From Acidobacteriota bacterium (lineage in GTDB: Bacteria; Acidobacteriota; Blastocatellia; UBA7656): a DNA stretch of 64,000 nucleotides. The stretch covers positions 80,190 to 144,189 of the forward strand of contig JBBPIG010000004.1 in assembly GCA_038040445.1 (NCBI GenBank), written 5' to 3'. A program made the position numbers and the translations under genes. This document shows, piece after piece, positions 13,201 to 57,864 of the stretch; the first letter of the stretch is position 1, and each line of letters starts with the position of its first letter. The notes below the pieces were generated by a model. That model was not told the origin of the DNA. It saw only the letters and a list, made by a program, of their open reading frames with translations, and made no database searches.

Positions 13201-13280
13201 CTGCTAAGAGCAAAGAGCCAAGTGCAAAGAGCAAAGGGCAAAGAGCTAGGTGCCCTTTGGCCTTTGCTCCCTGCTCTAGC
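13201..13280. repeat. GNRCNAA heptamer hairpin
   Basis: Six tandem 7-base units (GAGCAAA, GAGCCAA, then GTGCAAA, GAGCAAA, GGGCAAA, GAGCTAG) at 13208-13249 are followed by three complementary-strand units (TTTGGCC, TTTGCTC, CCTGCTC) at 13256-13276. The layout is the same two-arm heptamer design as the GTCNNC arrays but with a different word. It starts four bases after the methyltransferase stop. Confidence 0.8.
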
Positions 13281-25898: not shown

Positions 25899-28639
25899 AA
25901 GTCGCGGTTGTTTCGCCTCACCCAATTCAATACCACACACCGTGGTTTCAGAAGCTCGCGGCTCAGGAGCACGTTGACCTGAAAGTTTACTACGCGCTTT
26001 TGCCCGACCAGCGGCAACAGGGTGTCGGGTTTGGCGAAGCTTTCGCCTGGGACATTCCGCTGCTTGAAGGCTATGACTGGGAGCTGATTCCCAACAAAAG
26101 AAGATCGCCGAGCCTGCGAGGCTTTTTTCGAAGCAGCACCCCGGCTATCTATTCACTGCTTGCCCGGGCAAAGCCCGATGTCGTGATCATCACCGGATGG
26201 CAGGCGCTGCCATTGCTGCAAGCGCTATGGGCGGCGATCAGGCTCGGAATCCCGCGCATAGTCCGAGGAGAATCCAACGGCTTGCGACCGAGGCCCTCGC
26301 CGGTTCGAGCTTTACATCGGCTGCTGCTCTCGCGGTTCGATGCGTTCCTGGCAATCGGCAAGCTGAATCGCGAGTTCTATCTTCAGTACGGCATCCCGGA
26401 CGAACGTGTTTTCTCCTGTCCGTACTTTGTGGACAACGATCGCTTCGCGGCCCAGCTCGTTGGGGATGCCGTCGAACGCGACTCCTTGCGCGCCGGATGG
26501 AACATCGACGACGGGCGACCGGCGACCGAAGACCGGCCTCGGGTCTGTTTTCTTTTTGCGGGAAAGCTGGAGCCGAAGAAACGAATAATGGATCTGCTGC
26601 GAGCGATGGACGTGGCTCGGCGGAAGTGTCCTTCGATTCACCTGCTGGTGGCCGGCGCCGGCGAGCTGATGGATGAGGCTCGACAGTTTGCGGAGAGTCG
26701 CAGCCTACCGGTCACTTTCGCGGGCTTCTTGAATCAGTCACAGATCACTCGCGCTTATGCAGCCGCCGATTGTCTGGTGTTGCCTTCGGATCACGGTGAG
26801 ACGTGGGGTCTGGTGGTGAACGAGGCGATGGCTTGTGGTCTCCCCGCAATCGTGAGCGACCAAGCCGGTTGTGGTCCCGATCTGGTTGAAGAAGGCGTCA
26901 CCGGTGGCGTCTTCCCGTGTGGAGACATCAACGCACTTGCGCTAAAGATTCAAGCGTTCGCTTCGGATCCTGAACAGCTTGCTCGCATGGGGGAGCAAGC
27001 CAGGCAACGAATCAATAACTACTCTGTTGAACGGGCGGTTCAGGGCACAATGCGGGCGCTCGAGTTCGTGACAAGCGCCGGGCGACGGACGACAGACGAC
27101 GGGCGAGAGACGACGGGGGACGGGCGACGGACGACAGACGACGGGCGACGGGTGACGGGCGACGGGCGATTGACGACAGACGACGGACGACGGACGACGG
27201 AGGACGGAGGACGGACGACGGTCCACCGTCATCTGTCCCCGGTCTCCGGTCGCCCCTCGGTCCACCGTCATCTGTCCCCGGTCTCCGGTCGGTCCTCGGT
27301 CGTCGGTCCTCGGTCCTCCCTGCGCGTTCTCCACGTGATTCCCTCCATGTCTTCGAGAGACGGCGGGCCAAGCTTTGCCATGCCGTTGATCGCTCGAGGG
27401 CTTCAGCGCGCGGGAGTCGTGGTTGATGTGGCGACTACGGTAGGAGACCAGGAAGCCGCGACGCTTGGCGCCGATCTCGACGGACCCGTGAGGAGCGAGG
27501 GAGTGAGCTACTTCAACTTTCGCCGGCAGTCTGAGTTCTACAAGGTTTCGTTTCCGTTATCGAAATGGCTTTCCGCCCACGTTCGGGACTACGACCTCGT
27601 TCACATACACGCCCTGTTCTCGTATTCGAGCTATGCCGCTGCAACTCTGGCAGCTAAGAACGGGGTGCCTTACATCGTCAGACCGCTTGGCGTGTTGAAT
27701 CGCTGGGGCATGCAGAACCGCCGAAGGTTGCTGAAGCGGCTTTCGTTCCGCTTTATCGAACAGCGCATAATACGCAACGCCGCGGCAATCCACTACACCA
27801 GCCAGCAGGAGAAGCTCGAAGCCGAGGAAGCGGGCGTTAGAAATCAATCAGTGGTGATTCCTCTCGCGGTTGACCTGTCAGGGTTTCGTGAGTTGGGGGG
27901 GCCTGAAAGATTCTATGAGAAGTTCCCTCGCGCGCGCGGCAACGACATCATCTTGTTCCTGTCGCGGCTCGACCCAAAGAAGGGGTTGGATCTATTGCTG
28001 CGCGCATTCGCGACGGACAACCGAAGACGGACGACCGGAGACGGACGGCGGACTTTGCTTGTGATAGCGGGGGAGGGCGACGCGCAGTTTGTAGAGGGCT
28101 TGCGTAGACTGGCGGAGGAACTGCGGATCGCCGACGCGATTCTGTGGACCGGGTTTCTTGACGGCGAGGATAAGTTGTCCGCGATGGCCGCAGCATCGTT
28201 GTTTGTTCTGCCTTCTTACTCGGAGAACTTCGGCATCGCGCTTGTCGAAGCAATGGCCGCGGGGCTGCCGTGTGTGATGTCGGATCAGGTGGGGATAGCG
28301 GTTGACGCAAAGGAATACGACGCGGGGTTGGTGGCGCCATGCGAGGCCGGGCTGGTGGCTTCTGCGATGCGGCGCCTGATCGACGATCCCGAGCTGCGCG
28401 GTCGTCTCGGCGCCAACGCGCGCCGCCTTGCCGATGATCGCTTCTCGGTGGAGGCAATGACCGATTCGCTGGTAAAGCTTTACGATCGGGTTCTGTCTCG
28501 GGCGACGGGAGACCGGAGACCGGAGACGGGAGACCGGGGCAAGATGACCGTAGACCGGGGACAGACGACGGCCGACCGGGGACCCGAGAGCGCCCGTCGT
28601 CCGTCGTCCGTCGTCCGTCAGATCAACCAGCATGTCTAA
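25895..28639 (+). CDS. Fusion of two GT4 glycosyltransferases through a repeat-encoded linker
   Basis: 914 residues, about twice the family length. Domain 1 (about 1-395) begins KVAVVSPHPIQYHTPWFQKL and has ETWGLVVNE (E-x7-E). Domain 2 (about 476-868) begins LRVLHVIPSMSSRDGGPSFA and has ENFGIALVE (E-x7-E). Residues 396-475 are the translation of array E10, with R/T/D/G heptapeptides then a duplicated 13-residue unit VHRHLSPVSGRPS. Smaller arrays add residues 204-215 (E9) in domain 1, 706-720 (E11) in domain 2, and the tail 869-908 (E12). Both catalytic signatures are intact, so a bifunctional enzyme making two successive linkages is plausible. Readthrough created by array expansion is the inferred origin. 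Confidence 0.9.
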   Translation: MKVAVVSPHPIQYHTPWFQKLAAQEHVDLKVYYALLPDQRQQGVGFGEAFAWDIPLLEGYDWELIPNKRRSPSLRGFFRSSTPAIYSLLARAKPDVVIITGWQALPLLQALWAAIRLGIPRIVRGESNGLRPRPSPVRALHRLLLSRFDAFLAIGKLNREFYLQYGIPDERVFSCPYFVDNDRFAAQLVGDAVERDSLRAGWNIDDGRPATEDRPRVCFLFAGKLEPKKRIMDLLRAMDVARRKCPSIHLLVAGAGELMDEARQFAESRSLPVTFAGFLNQSQITRAYAAADCLVLPSDHGETWGLVVNEAMACGLPAIVSDQAGCGPDLVEEGVTGGVFPCGDINALALKIQAFASDPEQLARMGEQARQRINNYSVERAVQGTMRALEFVTSAGRRTTDDGRETTGDGRRTTDDGRRVTGDGRLTTDDGRRTTEDGGRTTVHRHLSPVSGRPSVHRHLSPVSGRSSVVGPRSSLRVLHVIPSMSSRDGGPSFAMPLIARGLQRAGVVVDVATTVGDQEAATLGADLDGPVRSEGVSYFNFRRQSEFYKVSFPLSKWLSAHVRDYDLVHIHALFSYSSYAAATLAAKNGVPYIVRPLGVLNRWGMQNRRRLLKRLSFRFIEQRIIRNAAAIHYTSQQEKLEAEEAGVRNQSVVIPLAVDLSGFRELGGPERFYEKFPRARGNDIILFLSRLDPKKGLDLLLRAFATDNRRRTTGDGRRTLLVIAGEGDAQFVEGLRRLAEELRIADAILWTGFLDGEDKLSAMAAASLFVLPSYSENFGIALVEAMAAGLPCVMSDQVGIAVDAKEYDAGLVAPCEAGLVASAMRRLIDDPELRGRLGANARRLADDRFSVEAMTDSLVKLYDRVLSRATGDRRPETGDRGKMTVDRGQTTADRGPESARRPSSVVRQINQHV
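26506..26537. repeat. Heptamer array E9 (left arm only)
   Basis: Four to five GACGACG/GACCGGC-type units within domain 1 of the fused glycosyltransferase, in the loop before the strand RVCFLFAGK. It adds about eleven residues. No right arm is present. Confidence 0.8.
27080..27319. repeat. Heptamer inverted array E10 (gene-fusion linker)
   Basis: The largest array in the window. The left arm is about twenty GACGACG/GACGGGC units (27080-27219), the right arm about fourteen GGTCNNC units (27220-27319). The right arm includes a 39-base word present twice (from 27220 and 27259). The frame is open throughout, joining two glycosyltransferase domains. Translation shows a seven-residue period, as expected for 3 x 7 bases. 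Confidence 0.95.
28011..28053. repeat. Heptamer array E11 (left arm only)
   Basis: Six GACGGAC/GACCGGA-type units inside domain 2 of the fused glycosyltransferase, between the conserved helix ending LLLRAF and the strand TLLVIAGEG. The tract adds about fourteen residues to a loop that normally has two or three. Confidence 0.8.
28501..28619. repeat. Heptamer inverted array E12
   Basis: Left arm GACGGGA/GACCGGA units to about 28600, a short right arm of CGTCGTC-type units to 28619. It encodes most of the C-terminal tail of the fused glycosyltransferase and ends about twelve bases before the ATG at 28632. Confidence 0.9.
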
Positions 28640-29613: not shown

Positions 29614-29678
29614 GGACGGATGACCGACGACGGAGGACGGGTGACCGTCGCCTGTCGTCCGTCGTCGGTCATCCGTCC
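29614..29678. repeat. Perfect heptamer hairpin E13
   Basis: A 21-base arm at 29614-29634 (starting GGACGGATGACC) is exactly complementary to 29658-29678, with a 23-base centre that continues the pairing with two mismatches. This is the cleanest palindrome of the GTCNNC family. It lies in the 86-base gap between a dehydratase and a glycosyltransferase. No T-tract follows, so it does not look like a classical intrinsic terminator. Confidence 0.93.
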
Positions 29679-32318: not shown

Positions 32319-34468
<2,150 letters not shown>

Positions 34469-37366: not shown

Positions 37367-37400
37367 GAGACGACCGGCGACCGATGACCGACGACCGGCA
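37366..37400. repeat. Heptamer array E16 (left arm only)
   Basis: About five GACGACC/GATGACC units immediately after the transferase stop, ending two bases before the stop of the convergent peptidase gene at 37403. It is the last GTCNNC-family array seen in the window. Confidence 0.85.
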
Positions 37401-37402
37401 CG

Positions 37403-39682
37403 TCAACGCGGTCCAGCGGGAAGGTTCTGTTGCAGATACCTGGTTAACAATCCAAATAAGTGACGGGTCGTGTTAGCCCCTTCGCTGATCGCATGCGTGC
37501 GGTTCGGATACTCCATCATCGTGAACGGCTTGTTCGCCGCGATCAGCGCGTCGATCAGCGCTTCCGTGTTTTGGTAGTGCACGTTGTCATCGCCCGAACC
37601 GTGCACGATCAACAGATTGCCCTGCAGCTTGTCAACAAAATTGATTGAAGAGCCTCGCTTGTAGTCTTCTGCGTTCGGCTGCGGCAGACCCATGTAGCGC
37701 TCCTGATAGATCGTGTCGTAGTAACGTTGATTGGTCACCGGCGCAACCGACATGCCGGTCTTGTAGATCTCCGGATAGCGAAACATCATGTTGAGGGTCA
37801 TCGACCCGCCACCGCTCCAGCCCCAGATGCCGATTCTCGTCGCGTCGACAAACTTCCAGCGGTCTATGATGGCTTTCGCGGCCGCGGCTTGTTCTTGCGA
37901 CGCCAGCACGCCGATCTGTCGATAAACGATCTTCCGCCACGCCCGCCCTCGCGGCGCCGGAGTCCCGCGATTATCCACACTCGCCACGATGTAGCCGTGC
38001 TGCGCGAGCATCACGTGCCACAAGTAGTTGTTCCCGCCCCAACGATCAAGCACCGTTTGCCCAGCCGGCTCACCGTACACGTGAAACAGCACCGGATACC
38101 GTTTTGCCGGATCAAAGTCCGGAGGCTTGATCATCCAGCCGTCAAGCTGAACGCCGCTGCCGACGTCGACTCTGAAGAATTCGCTCGCGCCTCGCTTTAG
38201 CTTATTCACTTTCTCATTGAGGGCAGCGTTATCGACCAGCGAGCGCACACTCGCGTGGCCGGGCAAGCGCACCAAGTCTATTCGAGGCGGCTTGCCGAAC
38301 GACGAAAACGTGTGAAACGCAAATCCGGCGTTCCGCGAGATGTCGGGCGAGATGTCGGGCGAGATGTCGTAGGTGTGGATTCCCGGTTGGGCTGCGGGAG
38401 TCACCCTTTCGAGCTTGCCGCTTCCATCAAGCGCAGCCCGGTACAAGTACCGCTGCGTCGCGTTCTCGGGCGAGGCGTAGTAGTACAACCATCCTTTAGC
38501 TTTATCGACATTCACGACGCTGATCACATCAAACTCGCCAGGGGTGATAAGCTTGACCGTCGCTCCGTCTCGCGACACAACGTACACGTGCCTCCAGCCG
38601 TCGCGTTCGCTCACCCACAGAAAACGCTTGCCGCTATCCAGCCACTGGACGTCGTCCCCGTGTATATCCACCCACGCATCATCGCGATCCGTTAGTATCA
38701 TGCGCACTTTCCCGGTGCGAATGTCGCCGAGCATCACCAGGTTTGTGTTCTGCAAGCGATTGAGCTGCTGGAGCACGACTTCGTTTGAACTCTCGGCCCA
38801 GTTCATTCGCGCGATGTAGTGATTTCGCGGATCGCCGGGGACGTCCAGCCATCGTGTCGCTCCTCCCTGCGCGCTCACGACCCCAACTCGCGAGGCGGAG
38901 TTCTTCTCGCCCGCTTTTGGATAAGGAATCGGCGTGAGAATCGGATACACCGAACTCGTGTTGTCGATGAGAAAGAAGTCGCGAACCCCTTCGCTGTTGA
39001 GTTGCCAATAGGCGATGTGATTGGAGTCCGGGCTCCAGCGCCAGCCATCGCGCAGATCCAGCTCTTCTTCGTAGACCCAGTCAAACGTCCCGTTGATTAT
39101 CGTACGCGAGCCGTCGCCGGTCAGCCGAGCGATTCGGTTGCCGGCAAGCGTCTCGACGTACAGGTTGTTTTCCCGCACATACCCGACGCGTGTGCCGTCG
39201 GGCGAGAACTTGGCGAACATCAGCGTGGACGGCTTGGCTTCGCCGCCCAGCTTCGTGAGCATTCCGCTGTCCCTGTTCAACGCCCAATAGTCACCGCGAG
39301 TGTTCTGCCGCCACACTCGTCGCGAGTTGGTGAAGATGAGGAGGAGTTTGCCGTTCGGCGACCACGCATAGTCGTCGATTGCGAGCGGGGCCGAGCTGCC
39401 GCTTGGAACGAAGCGCTCGGCTGCAACGAGCACCTCGCGCCGTCCGCTCTCGGTATCGTAACGAATGATGTCCCGGCCGTCTTTAACCGTGGTTGAAGCC
39501 TCGAGCCGCGTGTAGCCGGCTCCGCCATCAAGCCAACGCACCGGGCCAAGCGATTGGCCGGTGAACTCCGTGGAGTTGAACAACCGATCGAGTGTGAGGA
39601 GTCCGGGGTCGGATTGCTGAGCAAGTACTCGCGCATCAGCGATCATCGCCAGGATCAGGAAAAGAAGCATGCGGCGAATCAT
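37403..39682 (-). CDS. S9 family peptidase, dipeptidyl-peptidase IV type
   Basis: 759 residues from the ATG at 39682, which has GGAGGT four bases upstream. The frame extends further, but that region is the 39.7-kb hairpin. MIRRMLLFLILAMIADARVLAQQ is a signal peptide. The DPPIV N-terminal beta-propeller follows, then an alpha/beta hydrolase with the nucleophile in IGIWGWSGGGSMTLN. The aspartate is in IVHGSGDDNVHYQN and the histidine in YPNRTHAISEG. It should clip X-Pro or X-Ala dipeptides in the periplasm or outside. The nucleophile motif has GWSGGG where DPP4 has GWSYGG. It is convergent with the glycan locus. Confidence 0.9.
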   Translation of the reverse strand: MIRRMLLFLILAMIADARVLAQQSDPGLLTLDRLFNSTEFTGQSLGPVRWLDGGAGYTRLEASTTVKDGRDIIRYDTESGRREVLVAAERFVPSGSSAPLAIDDYAWSPNGKLLLIFTNSRRVWRQNTRGDYWALNRDSGMLTKLGGEAKPSTLMFAKFSPDGTRVGYVRENNLYVETLAGNRIARLTGDGSRTIINGTFDWVYEEELDLRDGWRWSPDSNHIAYWQLNSEGVRDFFLIDNTSSVYPILTPIPYPKAGEKNSASRVGVVSAQGGATRWLDVPGDPRNHYIARMNWAESSNEVVLQQLNRLQNTNLVMLGDIRTGKVRMILTDRDDAWVDIHGDDVQWLDSGKRFLWVSERDGWRHVYVVSRDGATVKLITPGEFDVISVVNVDKAKGWLYYYASPENATQRYLYRAALDGSGKLERVTPAAQPGIHTYDISPDISPDISRNAGFAFHTFSSFGKPPRIDLVRLPGHASVRSLVDNAALNEKVNKLKRGASEFFRVDVGSGVQLDGWMIKPPDFDPAKRYPVLFHVYGEPAGQTVLDRWGGNNYLWHVMLAQHGYIVASVDNRGTPAPRGRAWRKIVYRQIGVLASQEQAAAAKAIIDRWKFVDATRIGIWGWSGGGSMTLNMMFRYPEIYKTGMSVAPVTNQRYYDTIYQERYMGLPQPNAEDYKRGSSINFVDKLQGNLLIVHGSGDDNVHYQNTEALIDALIAANKPFTMMEYPNRTHAISEGANTTRHLFGLLTRYLQQNLPAGPR

Positions 39683-39702
39683 CTCGACCTCCATGTAGTT
39701 GG

Positions 39703-39822
39703 CCTGGGAGCGCAGGATCGAGGATAGAAGATCGAGGATAGAAGATCGAGGATAGAAGATGGAAGATATTCTCGATCTATACTCGATCCTCGATCTTCTA
39801 TCCTCGATCCTGCGCTCCCAGG
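39703..39822. repeat. Large hairpin built from 14-base (2 x 7) units
   Basis: The 36-base arm 39703-39738 (starting CCTGGGAGCGCAGGATCG) is exactly complementary to 39787-39822. The left side contains three tandem copies of a 14-mer made of GATCGAG and GATAGAA (39716-39757). The centre, GGAAGATATTCTCGATC, is a further variant. It lies between two - strand genes, three bases after the ABC permease stop. It may end or attenuate transcription of the ABC operon or be a MITE-like element. Confidence 0.95.
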
Positions 39823-39824
39823 GC

Positions 39825-40589
39825 TCATTCAAGCGAGCGGCGTTCAAACTGACGCAACCCGAGAAAGGTAAAAAAAGAGCAGAAGCCCGCCAGCCCTCCG
39901 AAGATCAACCACATCGGCATGTGTGGCAACTGGGGCGTCAACGCGGCGCGGAAGCCTTCGCTCGCATAAACCAGCGGGTTGATCAGCACGAAGTTTTGAA
40001 ACCACGGAAGCACTTCCAACGACGCCCACGGATAATAAGCGCACCCGAAAAAGATCATCGGACCGAGCAGCACGTTGAACATCAGCCCGATCTGTTGAGG
40101 CTCAACGATCGTGCCCATCACCATCCCAAGCGCCGCGAACAGCCAGCCCGTTATCAGCGCGACCAAAATCAGCAGAAGAAAGTTTTCGGGCTGCAGATTG
40201 AGGTGCGTACCCATCATCAACCAGGCCAGCGGCAGTACGAACAGCCCGGCGATGACCGCTTGAATGATGCCGACGATTATCTTCTCGACGGCGACTCCCA
40301 TTATGCTGATCGGCGCCAACAGCCGGTCTTCGATTTCTTTCGTCCATCCGAATTCGACCACCAGCGGGAGCGCTACCGCCTGCATGCCTGAAAGCGTCAT
40401 GCTCAGCGCGAGTATGCCCGGCAGCAGCGCATTCGCGTAGCCGGTTTGCACGATTCCCAGGCGCGGCATTACATAGCCGAAGATAAACGTGAACAATATC
40501 GGCTGAATTCCAACGCGCAGGAAAAAGAACTTCAGCTCGCGGCGAGCTACGCGAATATCGCGGTGCAGCAGCGCTATCATTGTCGCCAT
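39825..40589 (-). CDS. ABC-2 type transporter permease
   Basis: 254 residues with six hydrophobic spans. MIALLHRDIRVARRELKFFFLR precedes the first, and the conserved ALPLVVEFGWTKEIEDRLLAP loop and MFNVLLGPMIFFGCAYYPW identify the ABC-2 family of multidrug and lipid exporters (DrrB/NodJ-like). It is the partner of the ATPase encoded four bases upstream. The substrate is unknown. The stop is three bases from the edge of the large hairpin. Confidence 0.9.
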   Translation of the reverse strand: MATMIALLHRDIRVARRELKFFFLRVGIQPILFTFIFGYVMPRLGIVQTGYANALLPGILALSMTLSGMQAVALPLVVEFGWTKEIEDRLLAPISIMGVAVEKIIVGIIQAVIAGLFVLPLAWLMMGTHLNLQPENFLLLILVALITGWLFAALGMVMGTIVEPQQIGLMFNVLLGPMIFFGCAYYPWASLEVLPWFQNFVLINPLVYASEGFRAALTPQLPHMPMWLIFGGLAGFCSFFTFLGLRQFERRSLE

Positions 40590-40593
40590 ATCT

Positions 40594-41565
40594 TCAGTCC
40601 CTCAAGCTTCTGCCGGTCAGATGCAAGAACAGATTTTCGAGACTTGGCTCGGAGACGTGAGCGTCGGTTACCATCACTCCCAGCTCGCCGGCGACTCGCA
40701 TTGCATTGGCCAGAAGACCCTCGGCCTTGTCCGCGTAGACCCGAATGGTGTTGTTCTGCACCTTCACTTCGACCACGCCTGCAAGCGCCGGCAAGGCAGA
40801 CGCGAGAGAGTTGATAGCACCGTCCGCGCTCTGGACTTGCAGCTCGATCAAGTAGCCGCCCGGCACTCCAGCCTTGAGCGTCGAGGGCGTGCCCATTTCA
40901 AGCAGCCTGCCTTTGTCCATGATCGCGATGCGCTGGCAAAGCTGATCCGCTTCGTCCATATAGTGCGTCGTCAGGAAGATCGTTTGACCCCTGGCGTTGA
41001 ACTCCAGCAACAAGTCCCAGATCGCGCGGCGGGCTTGTGGGTCGAGACCGGTAGTCGGCTCATCGAGAAAAAGAATTGCCGGATCGTGCATCAAAGCTCG
41101 AGCGATCTTCAACCGCTGAGCCATCCCGCCTGAATAAACCGTGGGCTTCTCATTGGCGCGTTCGGTCAATTGAAAGCGCTCCAATAATTCTTGCGCGCGC
41201 CGCTCTCGCACTCGCTTCGGGATGCCAAAATACTCGGCGTGAAACAGGAGGTTCTCGCTCCCGGTGAGGCTGCGATCGAGATTGTTCACTTGAGGGCACA
41301 CGCCTATGCGGCGCTTGACCGCAACAGGGTCGCGGCGCACGTCGATGCCGTCGACCAACGCCCGGCCTCCAGTGGGAATAACTCGCGTCGTTAGAATGCC
41401 GATGGTCGTCGTCTTACCGGCGCCGTTGGGCCCCAGCAGCCCAAAGAACTCGCCGCGTTCGATCTCGAATGAGATTCCGTCAACGGCTTTCACTTCAATC
41501 GCCTGTTTGCGGCTCTTGGGTTTGTAGATTTTTTGGAGGTTCTCGACGACGATGACTTTGTCCAT
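40594..41565 (-). CDS. ABC transporter ATP-binding protein (DrrA/NodI-like)
   Basis: 323 residues. Walker A GLLGPNGAGKTTTIGIL is near residue 45, the signature YSGGMAQRLKIARALMHDP near 145, Walker B ILFLDEPTTGLDPQARRAIWDLL next, then the switch TTHYMDEADQL. The C-terminal 90 residues form the regulatory DUF4162-like domain. It energises the adjacent permease. An AAAGG precedes the ATG. Antibiotic or lipid export is typical for the family, but the substrate is not readable. Confidence 0.93.
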   Translation of the reverse strand: MDKVIVVENLQKIYKPKSRKQAIEVKAVDGISFEIERGEFFGLLGPNGAGKTTTIGILTTRVIPTGGRALVDGIDVRRDPVAVKRRIGVCPQVNNLDRSLTGSENLLFHAEYFGIPKRVRERRAQELLERFQLTERANEKPTVYSGGMAQRLKIARALMHDPAILFLDEPTTGLDPQARRAIWDLLLEFNARGQTIFLTTHYMDEADQLCQRIAIMDKGRLLEMGTPSTLKAGVPGGYLIELQVQSADGAINSLASALPALAGVVEVKVQNNTIRVYADKAEGLLANAMRVAGELGVMVTDAHVSEPSLENLFLHLTGRSLRD

Positions 41566-46416: not shown

Positions 46417-46494
46417 ATTGGATTTCTCGCGGCAGGTATAAGTTCTCATTCGGAGATTATCAGAATCACTCTAATCCCTCTAACGATTGGAAGT

Positions 46495-46581
46495 TTGTAG
46501 TACGGCCTTTAGGCGGAAGTTCGTAACCGGTCGCCAGCCGGCCGAGCCGCTACGAACTTCCGCCTAAAGGCCGTACTACAA
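46495..46581. repeat. Inverted repeat R1, copy A
   Basis: 31-base arms 46495-46525 and 46551-46581 are perfectly complementary; each contains CCTTTAGGCGGAAGTT. The 25-base centre differs from the other copies. It lies between the AbrB gene start and the OmpA-like gene end. Confidence 0.95.
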
Positions 46582-46614
46582 CCTATCTCATCCTGAAATG
46601 AACAGGTGCGCGCG

Positions 46615-47628: not shown

Positions 47629-47910
47629 CGCTTCGACGCGACCGGGTTCTTGTTTTTAAGGATCTGAGGGCGGTCAGCTCTTAAACGCCCTAAGTCGTCC
47701 ACGCCCCAAAGTCAATTCTCATTGTGAGGATGGGGTACATCACTACTGCCCGCAACCAACTATAACCTTGCGCGGTCCACAGTGGATTCGGGCATAGTTG
47801 AATGTTAGACAATCTCGGGCATTCGCGCCATAGTGCTTGGGATTTCATAGGGGTGGGGGTGGGGATTCCAGGGAGCATCAGGCTGGATGTGCCACACGAA
47901 CTTCGCTTGT
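47629..47910. other. Gene-free stretch upstream of the OmpA-like gene
   Basis: Together with copy B of the R1 repeat this makes a gap of about 450 bases between the OmpA-like gene and the alpha-2-macroglobulin gene. I see no convincing ORF, RNA gene or terminator; a short GGGCG/CGCCC pairing near 47665-47690 is too small to call. Confidence 0.5.
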
Positions 47911-48006
47911 GAGTTCGTAGTCCGGCCTTTAGGCGGAAGTTGGTAACCCGATCGCGGTCCAGTCGATATGCTACGAACTTCCGCCTAAAGGCCGTACTAC
48001 GAACTC
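47911..48006. repeat. Inverted repeat R1, copy B
   Basis: 35-base arms 47911-47945 and 47972-48006, with two mismatches. The core CCTTTAGGCGGAAGTT is shared with copies A and C. It sits 17 bases after the alpha-2-macroglobulin stop (48024). Confidence 0.95.
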
Positions 48007-48023
48007 ACTTCATCCGTGTTTCC

Positions 48024-53552: not shown

Positions 53553-53645
53553 CTTTGCGTCTTTGCGCGAAACGGACCTGGTACGAAAACAAGTTTCACG
53601 CGAAACGGACCTTTACGAAAACAAGTTTCGCGCAAAGACGCAAAG
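53553..53645. repeat. Hairpin with internal 33-base tandem duplication
   Basis: The 21-base arm 53553-53573 (CTTTGCGTCTTTGCGC...) is exactly complementary to 53625-53645. Between and including them a unit starting CGCGAAACGGACC occurs twice (53566-53598 and 53599-53630). CTTTGCG-type eight-base steps build the arms. It lies 38 bases past the stop of the M14 gene (the - strand gene ends at 53683). Confidence 0.92.
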
Positions 53646-56485: not shown

Positions 56486-56490
56486 AGAAA

Positions 56491-56581
56491 GTTCGTAGTA
56501 CGGCCTTTAGGCGGAAGTTTGTACGTGGTCACAGTCCGGCCATTGTGCTACAAACTTCCGCCTAAAGGCCGTAATACGAAC
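56491..56581. repeat. Inverted repeat R1, copy C
   Basis: 33-base arms 56491-56523 and 56549-56581 with one mismatch. At the inner end this copy has GTTTGTA/TACAAAC where copy A has GTTCGTA/TACGAAC: both arms changed together. It lies in the 5' leader of the M14 gene, six bases upstream of its Shine-Dalgarno. Confidence 0.95.
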
Positions 56582-56924
56582 TCAAGAACTCGCGGCGCTG
56601 AACTCGCCGTGAGTTTTATCATCTTTGCCGGTTTCTCGCCAGAACCGGACGGTTCTTGGAACAAAACCACATGCAAAGCCGCTGCGATTGTGGTTCAATC
56701 TCAAGACAGCAGAATCGAGGCAGGCTGCTTGAGGTTCAATTCATTGCCTGCGTGATGCCCACACTCGAGCGATTCTGGTAAGCGATCAAAAGAGAACTCG
56801 AGAAGAGTTTAATAGTATTCATGGGGAACTGCTAAAACCGCCGCTGGAGCACACGAACCAAAAAAGGAACGGCCCCTGTTCTTTGTGTGTCTTTGTGGCC
56901 ATTTCTTAATTGGAGGAAGAGACT
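56582..56924. other. Gene-free region between divergent genes
   Basis: About 340 bases with promoters for the VOC gene (+) and probably the M14 gene (-). No ORF of interest is present. A TTCTTTGTGTGTCTTTGTGG word near 56880 belongs to the CTTTGNG type seen in the hairpin at 53.6 kb. The VOC gene has TTGGAGGA at 56910-56917. Confidence 0.5.
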
Positions 56925-57719: not shown

Positions 57720-57727
57720 TCGAAGGA

Positions 57728-57796
57728 GAGTTCGGAGTTCAAGCTTCAACTTGTCCCTGGCGATCGTGGACAAGCGAGAGCTTGAACTCCGAACTC
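57728..57796. terminator. Long hairpin after the VOC gene
   Basis: A 29-base stem (57728-57756 with 57768-57796, four mismatches) and an 11-base loop, nine bases after the VOC stop. The arm is written in 7-base steps (GAGTTCG, GAGTTCA, then AGCTTCA). It could end transcription, although the following tract (TAATCTCTAATC) is not a run of T, and could equally belong to the heptamer-phased hairpins. Confidence 0.6.
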
Positions 57797-57864
57797 TAAT
57801 CTCTAATCGGCCCTCGTTATGATGCCCGACGGTCCAGAGGCGAATGAGGTTTCTTCTCACTCCA

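Follow-up and report, generated by a model that had tools for sequence, protein, structure and literature searches.

The inverted repeat at 39703-39822 of the window, by which we mean the whole 64,000-nucleotide stretch analysed here (bases 80190-144189 of contig 4 of a source genome, G000, of 6.75 Mb in 72 contigs), lies in the gap between two genes on the minus strand. Upstream is a 254-aa ABC-2 type transporter permease (39825-40589; Pfam ABC2_membrane, 1.7e-21), whose closest named relatives are in Blastocatellia (Acidobacteriota) genomes and which belongs to the same gene run as an ABC transporter ATPase (40594-41565, minus strand; ABC_tran, 1.4e-32). Downstream is an S9 peptidase with a DPPIV N-terminal domain (37403-39694; DPPIV_N, 8.5e-91; Peptidase_S9, 1.5e-45). 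Gene calls came from a simple finder based on dicodons, which gave a coding fraction of 0.84, and the starts were then retrained. The TTG at 39847 given as the peptidase start in the list of open reading frames is wrong, as judged by the retrained start and the start aligned in a congeneric genome, and would take the gene through the hairpin. The hairpin begins 2 nt past the permease stop codon and finishes ahead of the Shine-Dalgarno region of the peptidase.

Counted inward from its outer end, the hairpin has 37 perfect pairs, one more than the perfect arms of 36 bases of the initial annotation, and a partly paired inside; its minimum free energy is -94.5 kcal/mol. In each arm the outermost 14 nt are not heptameric but consist of a dispersed REP-like sequence, CCTGGGAGCGCAGG on the left (39703-39716, plus strand) and CCTGCGCTCCCAGG on the right (39809-39822, minus strand, 2 nt from the permease stop codon). 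The last G of the left arm is the first base of the 5' heptamer array (39716-39764, plus strand), in which GATCGAG plus GATAGAA stand three times in register (39716-39757) and are followed by GATGGAA; GATCGAGGATAGAA occurs three times within this arm, and TRF reports a period of 14 with 3.8 copies. The 14-base unit claimed to occur three times does so in the 5' arm but not in the 3' array (39782-39811), where the same GATNGAN word lies on the minus strand and where the reverse complement, read from the outer end, gives GATCGAG GATAGAA GATCGAG GATCGAG. Between the two arrays is an imperfectly paired apex (39765-39781). The GATNGAN family has 91 BLAST matches elsewhere in the genome, so the word is not unique. 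The element is a composite in which REP-like outer arms enclose two convergent arrays of GATNGAN heptamers: the part of the REP internal to CCTGGGAGCGCAGG is gone, and GATCGAG, GATAGAA and GATGGAA heptamers stand in its place. A known RNA family or a terminator was considered and dropped. The terminator scan did not call the hairpin, which has no T-tract and a stem much too long for an intrinsic terminator, and Rfam gave no match above the gathering score, only sub-threshold ones, mostly to microRNA precursors, such as any long hairpin yields.

The core 13-mer of the outer arms, CTGGGAGCGCAGG, occurs 62+61 times (123) in the 6.75 Mb, against 0+0 for a reversed control. Its copies often form inverted pairs about 60-100 bp apart, a typical copy reading CCTGGGAGCGCAGGCATCCCTGCCTGC...GCAGGCAGGGATGCCTGCGCTCCCAGG. 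These arms show the anatomy of a REPIN, namely an inverted REP doublet able to form a hairpin (pairs about 70 bp apart are common) and, in TGGGAG-CGCAGGCATCCCTGCCTGC of the family copies, a GGAG beside a short palindrome; the window copy has lost this palindrome. The genome has seven Y1_Tnp matches. Fetched flanks of up to 1.5 kb beside these seven loci contain no GATNGAN arrays and no CTGGGAGCGC repeat, and with no REP of that kind in the fetched flanks we dropped RAYT mobilisation of the CTGGGAGCGC family. Other palindromes do flank some of the Y1_Tnp genes. One RAYT-like Y1 transposase match (C2:30160-30429) has GTAGTCCCGCCTTCAGGCGGAA-type hairpins on both sides (L168, C2:29831-30715). A transposase with the same hairpin on both sides is the classical REP/RAYT arrangement. 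The related GTACGGCCTTTAGGCGGAAG family is found in the window at 46492-46584, 47909-48008 and 56490-56582, while the Y1 transposase loci L162, L164 and L165 have differing palindromes nearby (GTTCAGAGTTCAACC..., CCCCAACCGGAAGGTTGGGG and ATCCCACCAACGCAGTTGGTGG), and the hairpin AGAGTTCGGAGTTCAAGCTTCAACTTG... at 57727-57797 of the window resembles the palindrome beside L162. This suggests several REP/RAYT systems within one genome.

Other heptamer elements of the window are a convergent pair with the word GACGGGA/GACCGGA (28503-28619), heptamer-phased hairpins with GACGGAT/GACCGAC (29614-29678) and a GACGGAC-type word (34319-34465), and a GACCGAC-type array at the opposite end of the peptidase gene (37369-37397); a further word family, AAAGAGC/AAAGGGC, forms an array with an imperfect inverted partner at 13206-13277. 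The initial annotation took GATCGAG/GATAGAA to be unrelated to the other heptamer of the window and argued from this that unit length, not sequence, is conserved. The two words are in fact similar, since GACGGAC and GATCGAG/GATAGAA both fit GAYNGRN, and that example alone is weak evidence for length over sequence. In the genome as sampled, the convergent pairs comprise the word families GATNGAN, GACNGAN, AATTGAA, CAGAAGG, CAGAGGT, GGCAAAA and GGCAAAG, as well as GTTCNGG, GTTTCTG, GTGATGC, GATTTTG, GTCCGTA, GATTGCC and ATTTTCC; GTTCAGG is also among the heptamer-hairpin words, and the total is a dozen or more. Drift of all of them from a single ancestral word was considered and rejected, if weakly, since the 18 consensus words compared were listed by hand: their minimum spanning tree has a length of 33, against 33.6 for letter-shuffled words (P=0.49), so that they are no closer than shuffled ones. 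Some arrays contain two words consecutively (CAGAGGT with CAGAAGG; GATAGAA then AATTGAA), which indicates that words can also change inside one array.

The preference for 7 bases that the initial annotation proposed to look for by autocorrelation is borne out. The sample was 864 kb, made up of the window and three contig stretches not picked for the GATNGAN word; inverted repeats with arms of 16 nt or longer number 109 there, far above the 4 of an order-3 Markov copy. Among the 106 of these without N, arm autocorrelation was significant against shuffles (P<=0.002) at lag 7 for 38 hairpins, at lag 14 for 32, at lag 8 for a single one and at lag 16 for a single one; the remaining lags between 2 and 16 were never significant. 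Another 400 kb of this genome yielded 56 hairpins, with lag 7 in 20, lag 14 in 14, lag 8 in 3, and lags 9 and 16 in 1 each. TRF on the first 864 kb found 47, 38, 13 and 5 arrays with periods 7, 14, 21 and 28, two with period 8 and none with 5 or 6; at a lower score threshold, over 1.26 Mb, there were 117 arrays at period 7 against 1, 4 and 9 at periods 5, 6 and 8. The source genome thus has tandem 7-nt units beyond chance, as in bacterial heptanucleotide repeats. Extrapolated to the full 6.75 Mb, either rate (38 in 864 kb, 19 in 400 kb) puts the number of heptamer-array hairpins in the genome at an estimated 300 or so; the reading covered about a quarter of the genome and included some stretches picked for holding the GATNGAN word. 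These counts are probably low, since assembly gaps fall within arrays: runs of N are found at C1:30297-30406, at about 4110-4210 of L250 and at C6:150655-150762, two of them inside heptamer arrays, and assemblies probably collapse or break at heptamer repeats. Among relatives, arrays are abundant in G004, G009 and G001 (the contigs of the last having been picked in part by heptamer matches) and scarce, at 0-1.2 per 100 kb, in G003, G017 and sampled loci of Gemmatimonadota and Actinobacteria. Three consecutive GATNGAN units are abundant in G000, G001, G006 and G078 and rare in the rest of the 98 genomes searched.

The arms also have a common polarity. The 5' arm of a hairpin is identical whichever strand is read, so its base skew is well defined; G exceeds C in 35 heptamer hairpins and falls short of it in 2, compared with 36 and 28 for other hairpins. 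Of 61 convergent pairs, 56 have their G-rich array on the left, and ATTTTCC or ATTTGCC-type words make up four of the five that do not; the further 400 kb gave 16:3, with two of the three exceptions ATTTTCC-type. The sense is the same in G001, G004 and G009, with few exceptions. Copies that share a word cannot be counted as independent, and the effective number of cases lies closer to the number of words. The non-heptamer hairpins of the 864-kb sample have a skew of another kind (5' arms with A>T in 12 and A<T in 52), and this excess of T over A is probably driven by a few repeated families.

As to position, the 61 pairs (counted, as for polarity, over pooled stretches picked for the GATNGAN word and unpicked ones) are distributed over co-directional gaps (49), convergent gaps (8), divergent gaps (2) and called genes (2), and as divergent gaps make up 21% of the intergenic length, their deficit there has a binomial P of 0.001. 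Stop codons lie a median of 6 nt away, where random placement within those gaps would give 10.5 nt (P=0.012), a modest effect because many gaps are short. Arrays without a partner have no sense-strand preference (24:23). Mismatches in the sense RNA are wobble-compatible in 64 cases and incompatible in 43 (P=0.053, with neighbouring units not independent); this bias, which is not significant, gives weak support to an RNA role for the hairpins, and covariation at the RNA level was dropped as a claim at 64:43. The statement that unit length, not sequence, is conserved holds for a period of 7 across many words, but polarity and stop-codon position are kept too, and a G-rich 5' arm near a stop codon is not predicted by sequence-blind slippage alone.

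Hairpins at homologous junctions differ in sequence. In the same-genus genome G001, the permease-peptidase junction has a CTTTGCG/TTAGCG-type hairpin instead, with conserved sequence on both sides; hairpins of this type are also found at 53553-53645 of the window and at L187:2860-2994. One syntenic gap has CAGAGGT heptamers in G001 and GTGATGC in G000; a second, at the far end of the peptidase, has CAGAGGT/CAGAAGG in G001 against the GACCGAC array of G000; and a third has a GATNGAN hairpin against a CACAAAG hairpin. The remaining gaps compared have GATNGAN in both genomes or a hairpin in one alone. This set of orthologous junctions is small and was partly chosen through heptamer matches, and G001, the nearest genome, is a different species, in which the arrays are replaced rather than alignable. 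Outside the genus, the gene order past the permease differs and the relatives gave no empty-site comparison; behind the orthologous permease of another acidobacterial genome (L065:5760-6100) are two hairpins: in one, TAGGAGTTACGCAGTTGA arms enclose a CCGCCTGCGGTAGCGGGCGG palindrome, and the other is made of AGTTTTC heptamers. A second set of homologous sites is provided by an FtsX-type permease family (Pfam FtsX, 1.2e-17) with 27 paralogous stop codons in these genomes. At 20 of the 27 a hairpin starts 0-33 nt past the stop, and 19 of the 20 are heptameric, with at least five words (GTTCNGG, GTTTCTG, GATNGAN, GATTTTG and GATTTCC/GATTGCC) and in some cases a nested REP or CTTTGCG hairpin. The hairpin is not essential there, as 7 of the 27 sites have none, and sharing among the paralogues is partly due to duplication. 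Runs of FtsX-domain permease paralogues are found at L233, L218, L248, L254 and L265-L273, usually with a hairpin of its own at each stop codon.

Nesting of the kind seen at 39703-39822 recurs: GTTCNGG (as GTTCAGG) lies around GTTTCTG, GTTCCGG around a CCTTCAGG REP, GATNGAN around AATTGAA or CTTTGCG, and GATTTTG around a CTGGGAGCGCAGG REP that itself lies around CTTTGCG. Mirrored flanks of at least 8 score units were found around 4 of 20 copies of the REP family, against 0.2 expected, as if REPs landed in the loops of existing hairpins. For the heptamer pairs, mirrored extension of the flanks did not go beyond chance (4.30 vs 4.20), and the unit order of the two arms is only partly mirrored, even though selecting hairpins by their pairing biases the unit-order comparison in favour of mirroring. 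Fold-back inverted duplication as the sole origin was rejected on these two grounds. The loops of the convergent heptamer pairs had no second match in the sample in 37 of 44 cases, while some copies of the GTGATGC hairpins and of the GTTCAGG/GTTTCTG hairpins have loop sequences in common.

For the observed anatomy, period, polarity, position and nesting, and for the observed replacement of hairpins at homologous junctions, the explanation that we prefer, and to which we would give about an even chance, is that the element is an intercistronic REP-like composite hairpin, one of a class that shares a 7-nt unit, a polarity and a position and is shaped by slippage, re-seeding at the tip and selection for a stem. 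A REPIN-type palindrome between the permease stop codon and the Shine-Dalgarno sequence of the peptidase would have had its inside replaced by convergent degenerate GATNGAN arrays. Such arrays may grow and shrink through strand slippage in 7-nt steps, so that words drift or get replaced while the period stays. New layers might form at the tips of hairpins already in place, where cleavage, invasion or repair is plausible; this would give both nested words and symmetrically truncated outer arms. Selection would keep a strong RNA stem past the stop codon, where it may protect the upstream message or separate the downstream gene, and any strong stem, whatever its sequence, would serve that role. 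A like role for the stem has been proposed for the REP elements of enterobacteria. By itself, slippage accounts for neither the G polarity nor the word common to both sides.

The main rival, which strikes us as possible though somewhat unlikely, is that the arrays are a functionless by-product, ordinary simple repeats whose unit of about 7 nt corresponds to the DNA segment held by the polymerase and which survive in tolerated places. Heptanucleotides are reported to be the commonest long simple repeat in most bacteria, a report that comes with the footprint idea (Mrazek 2007, as summarized in PMC4679880 and PMC4692102); 77 arrays have no inverted partner, and hairpins shun divergent, promoter-rich gaps, as expected of neutral insertions. 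However, 120 of 202 arrays are paired with an inverted array of the same word within 250 bp, and simple slippage makes no inverted pairs, nor does it give a fixed G-rich 5' arm (35:2) or differing words at the same homologous site; the neutral reading is thus left with no account of inverted pairing and polarity. Quite unlikely, in our judgement, is a mobile element, with non-autonomous REPIN- or MITE-like copies moved by a Y1 (RAYT) or other loop-targeting transposase. The seven Y1_Tnp matches, the REPIN anatomy of the outer arms with GGAG ahead of the palindrome, the loop sequences common to some copies and the recurrence of the same words at dispersed sites would all suit it, but the largely unique loops mean that most hairpins are not copies of one unit, and both the unmirrored flanks of the heptamer pairs and the flanks fetched around the Y1_Tnp loci speak against it.

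Two further readings place the origin of the arrays at breaks or hairpin tips. That a dedicated telomere-like process builds 7-nt repeats of arbitrary sequence on both sides of such a site, the G-rich strand facing outward, with selection keeping the hairpins at stop codons whatever their sequence, seems to us very unlikely. We consider it highly improbable that the hairpins are scars of end healing, in which a hairpin tip breaks, a polymerase adds 7-nt repeats to both 3' ends with the G-rich strand outward, as in telomeres, and joining of the ends would leave convergent arrays about a unique joint. The G-rich strand does run towards the centre in nearly all pairs, and mostly unique loops, the partly mirrored unit order and arrays enclosed by other hairpins whose two outer arms stop at the same point, as at 39703-39822, would fit. 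Yet we know of no enzyme that adds 7-nt repeats to both ends of a break, the same word at both ends needs a common template, and the ATTTTCC family is oriented oppositely in several copies. Finally, protein-binding arrays, with 7-nt-spaced sites for an RNA- or DNA-binding regulator, can be given hardly any weight: the fixed spacing and the constant and variable positions of each word (as in GATNGAN) are compatible with them, as is the post-transcriptional regulator proposed for the TAACTGA repeats of Beggiatoaceae (PMC4679880), but a dozen or more words at equivalent sites in one genome misfit a single binding specificity, and unpaired arrays have no sense-strand preference.

The bacterial preference for 7-nt units has been noted since 2007, and in the summaries of that work that we consulted the sole explanation offered is the guess of a polymerase footprint. 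Where unrelated words abound, most of them in convergent hairpins with a single polarity, and differ between homologous stop codons, unit length becomes separable from sequence, and the question can be tested on paralogous sites or close strains. Our results also suggest that intercistronic RNA hairpins can be preserved in form and location while one sequence gives way to another, and homology searches based on sequence would miss such hairpins. The heptanucleotide excess, the convergent G-rich pairs of Xanthomonas, the GATAGRA satellites, the TAACTGA repeats and the REPINs are all already published. In the open literature searched, we found no report of many heptamer words with a common polarity in one genome, of hairpins abutting stop codons with turnover of the word in place, or of nesting inside REPs.

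Among the known systems, REP/REPIN elements with their RAYT transposases (PMC3116915) resemble the outer arms in the inverted doublet, the GGAG before the palindrome and the many intergenic copies; unlike them, the element described here has a heptameric inside, and no cognate RAYT was found beside the CTGGGAGCGCAGG family in the Y1_Tnp flanks fetched. The TAACTGA repeats of Beggiatoaceae, Cyanobacteria and Bacteroidetes, which show indels in 7-nt steps between Cyanothece strains, are likewise intergenic heptamer arrays with other heptamers mixed in, but they are direct repeats, mostly upstream of start codons, with one dominant word (PMC4679880). In the long simple repeats of Mrazek (2007) the 7-nt unit dominates irrespective of sequence, as it does here; the repeats are cited as direct, and inverted pairing, polarity and placement at stop codons go unmentioned in the summaries of PMC4679880 and PMC4692102. 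The (GATAGRA)n repeats of Chloroflexus aurantiacus, which are called the principal members of the largest family of satellites found in bacteria, have practically the same word as the hairpin at 39703-39822, and the part of PMC6749651 that deals with them describes them as satellites, with no mention of inverted pairing. The GGGAATC arrays of Xanthomonas (PMC4692102) share with ours a degenerate heptamer (GGGANTN), a mostly intergenic location (the 5' neighbouring gene being 28 nt away on average), convergent G-rich pairs (70-75 inverted pairs per genome) and rarity between divergent genes, and arrays of similar length sit at different genes in two Xanthomonas species. That study dealt with one G-quadruplex word per genome, whereas the genome studied here combines a dozen or more words, mostly lacking G-tracts, which nest in REPs and in each other.
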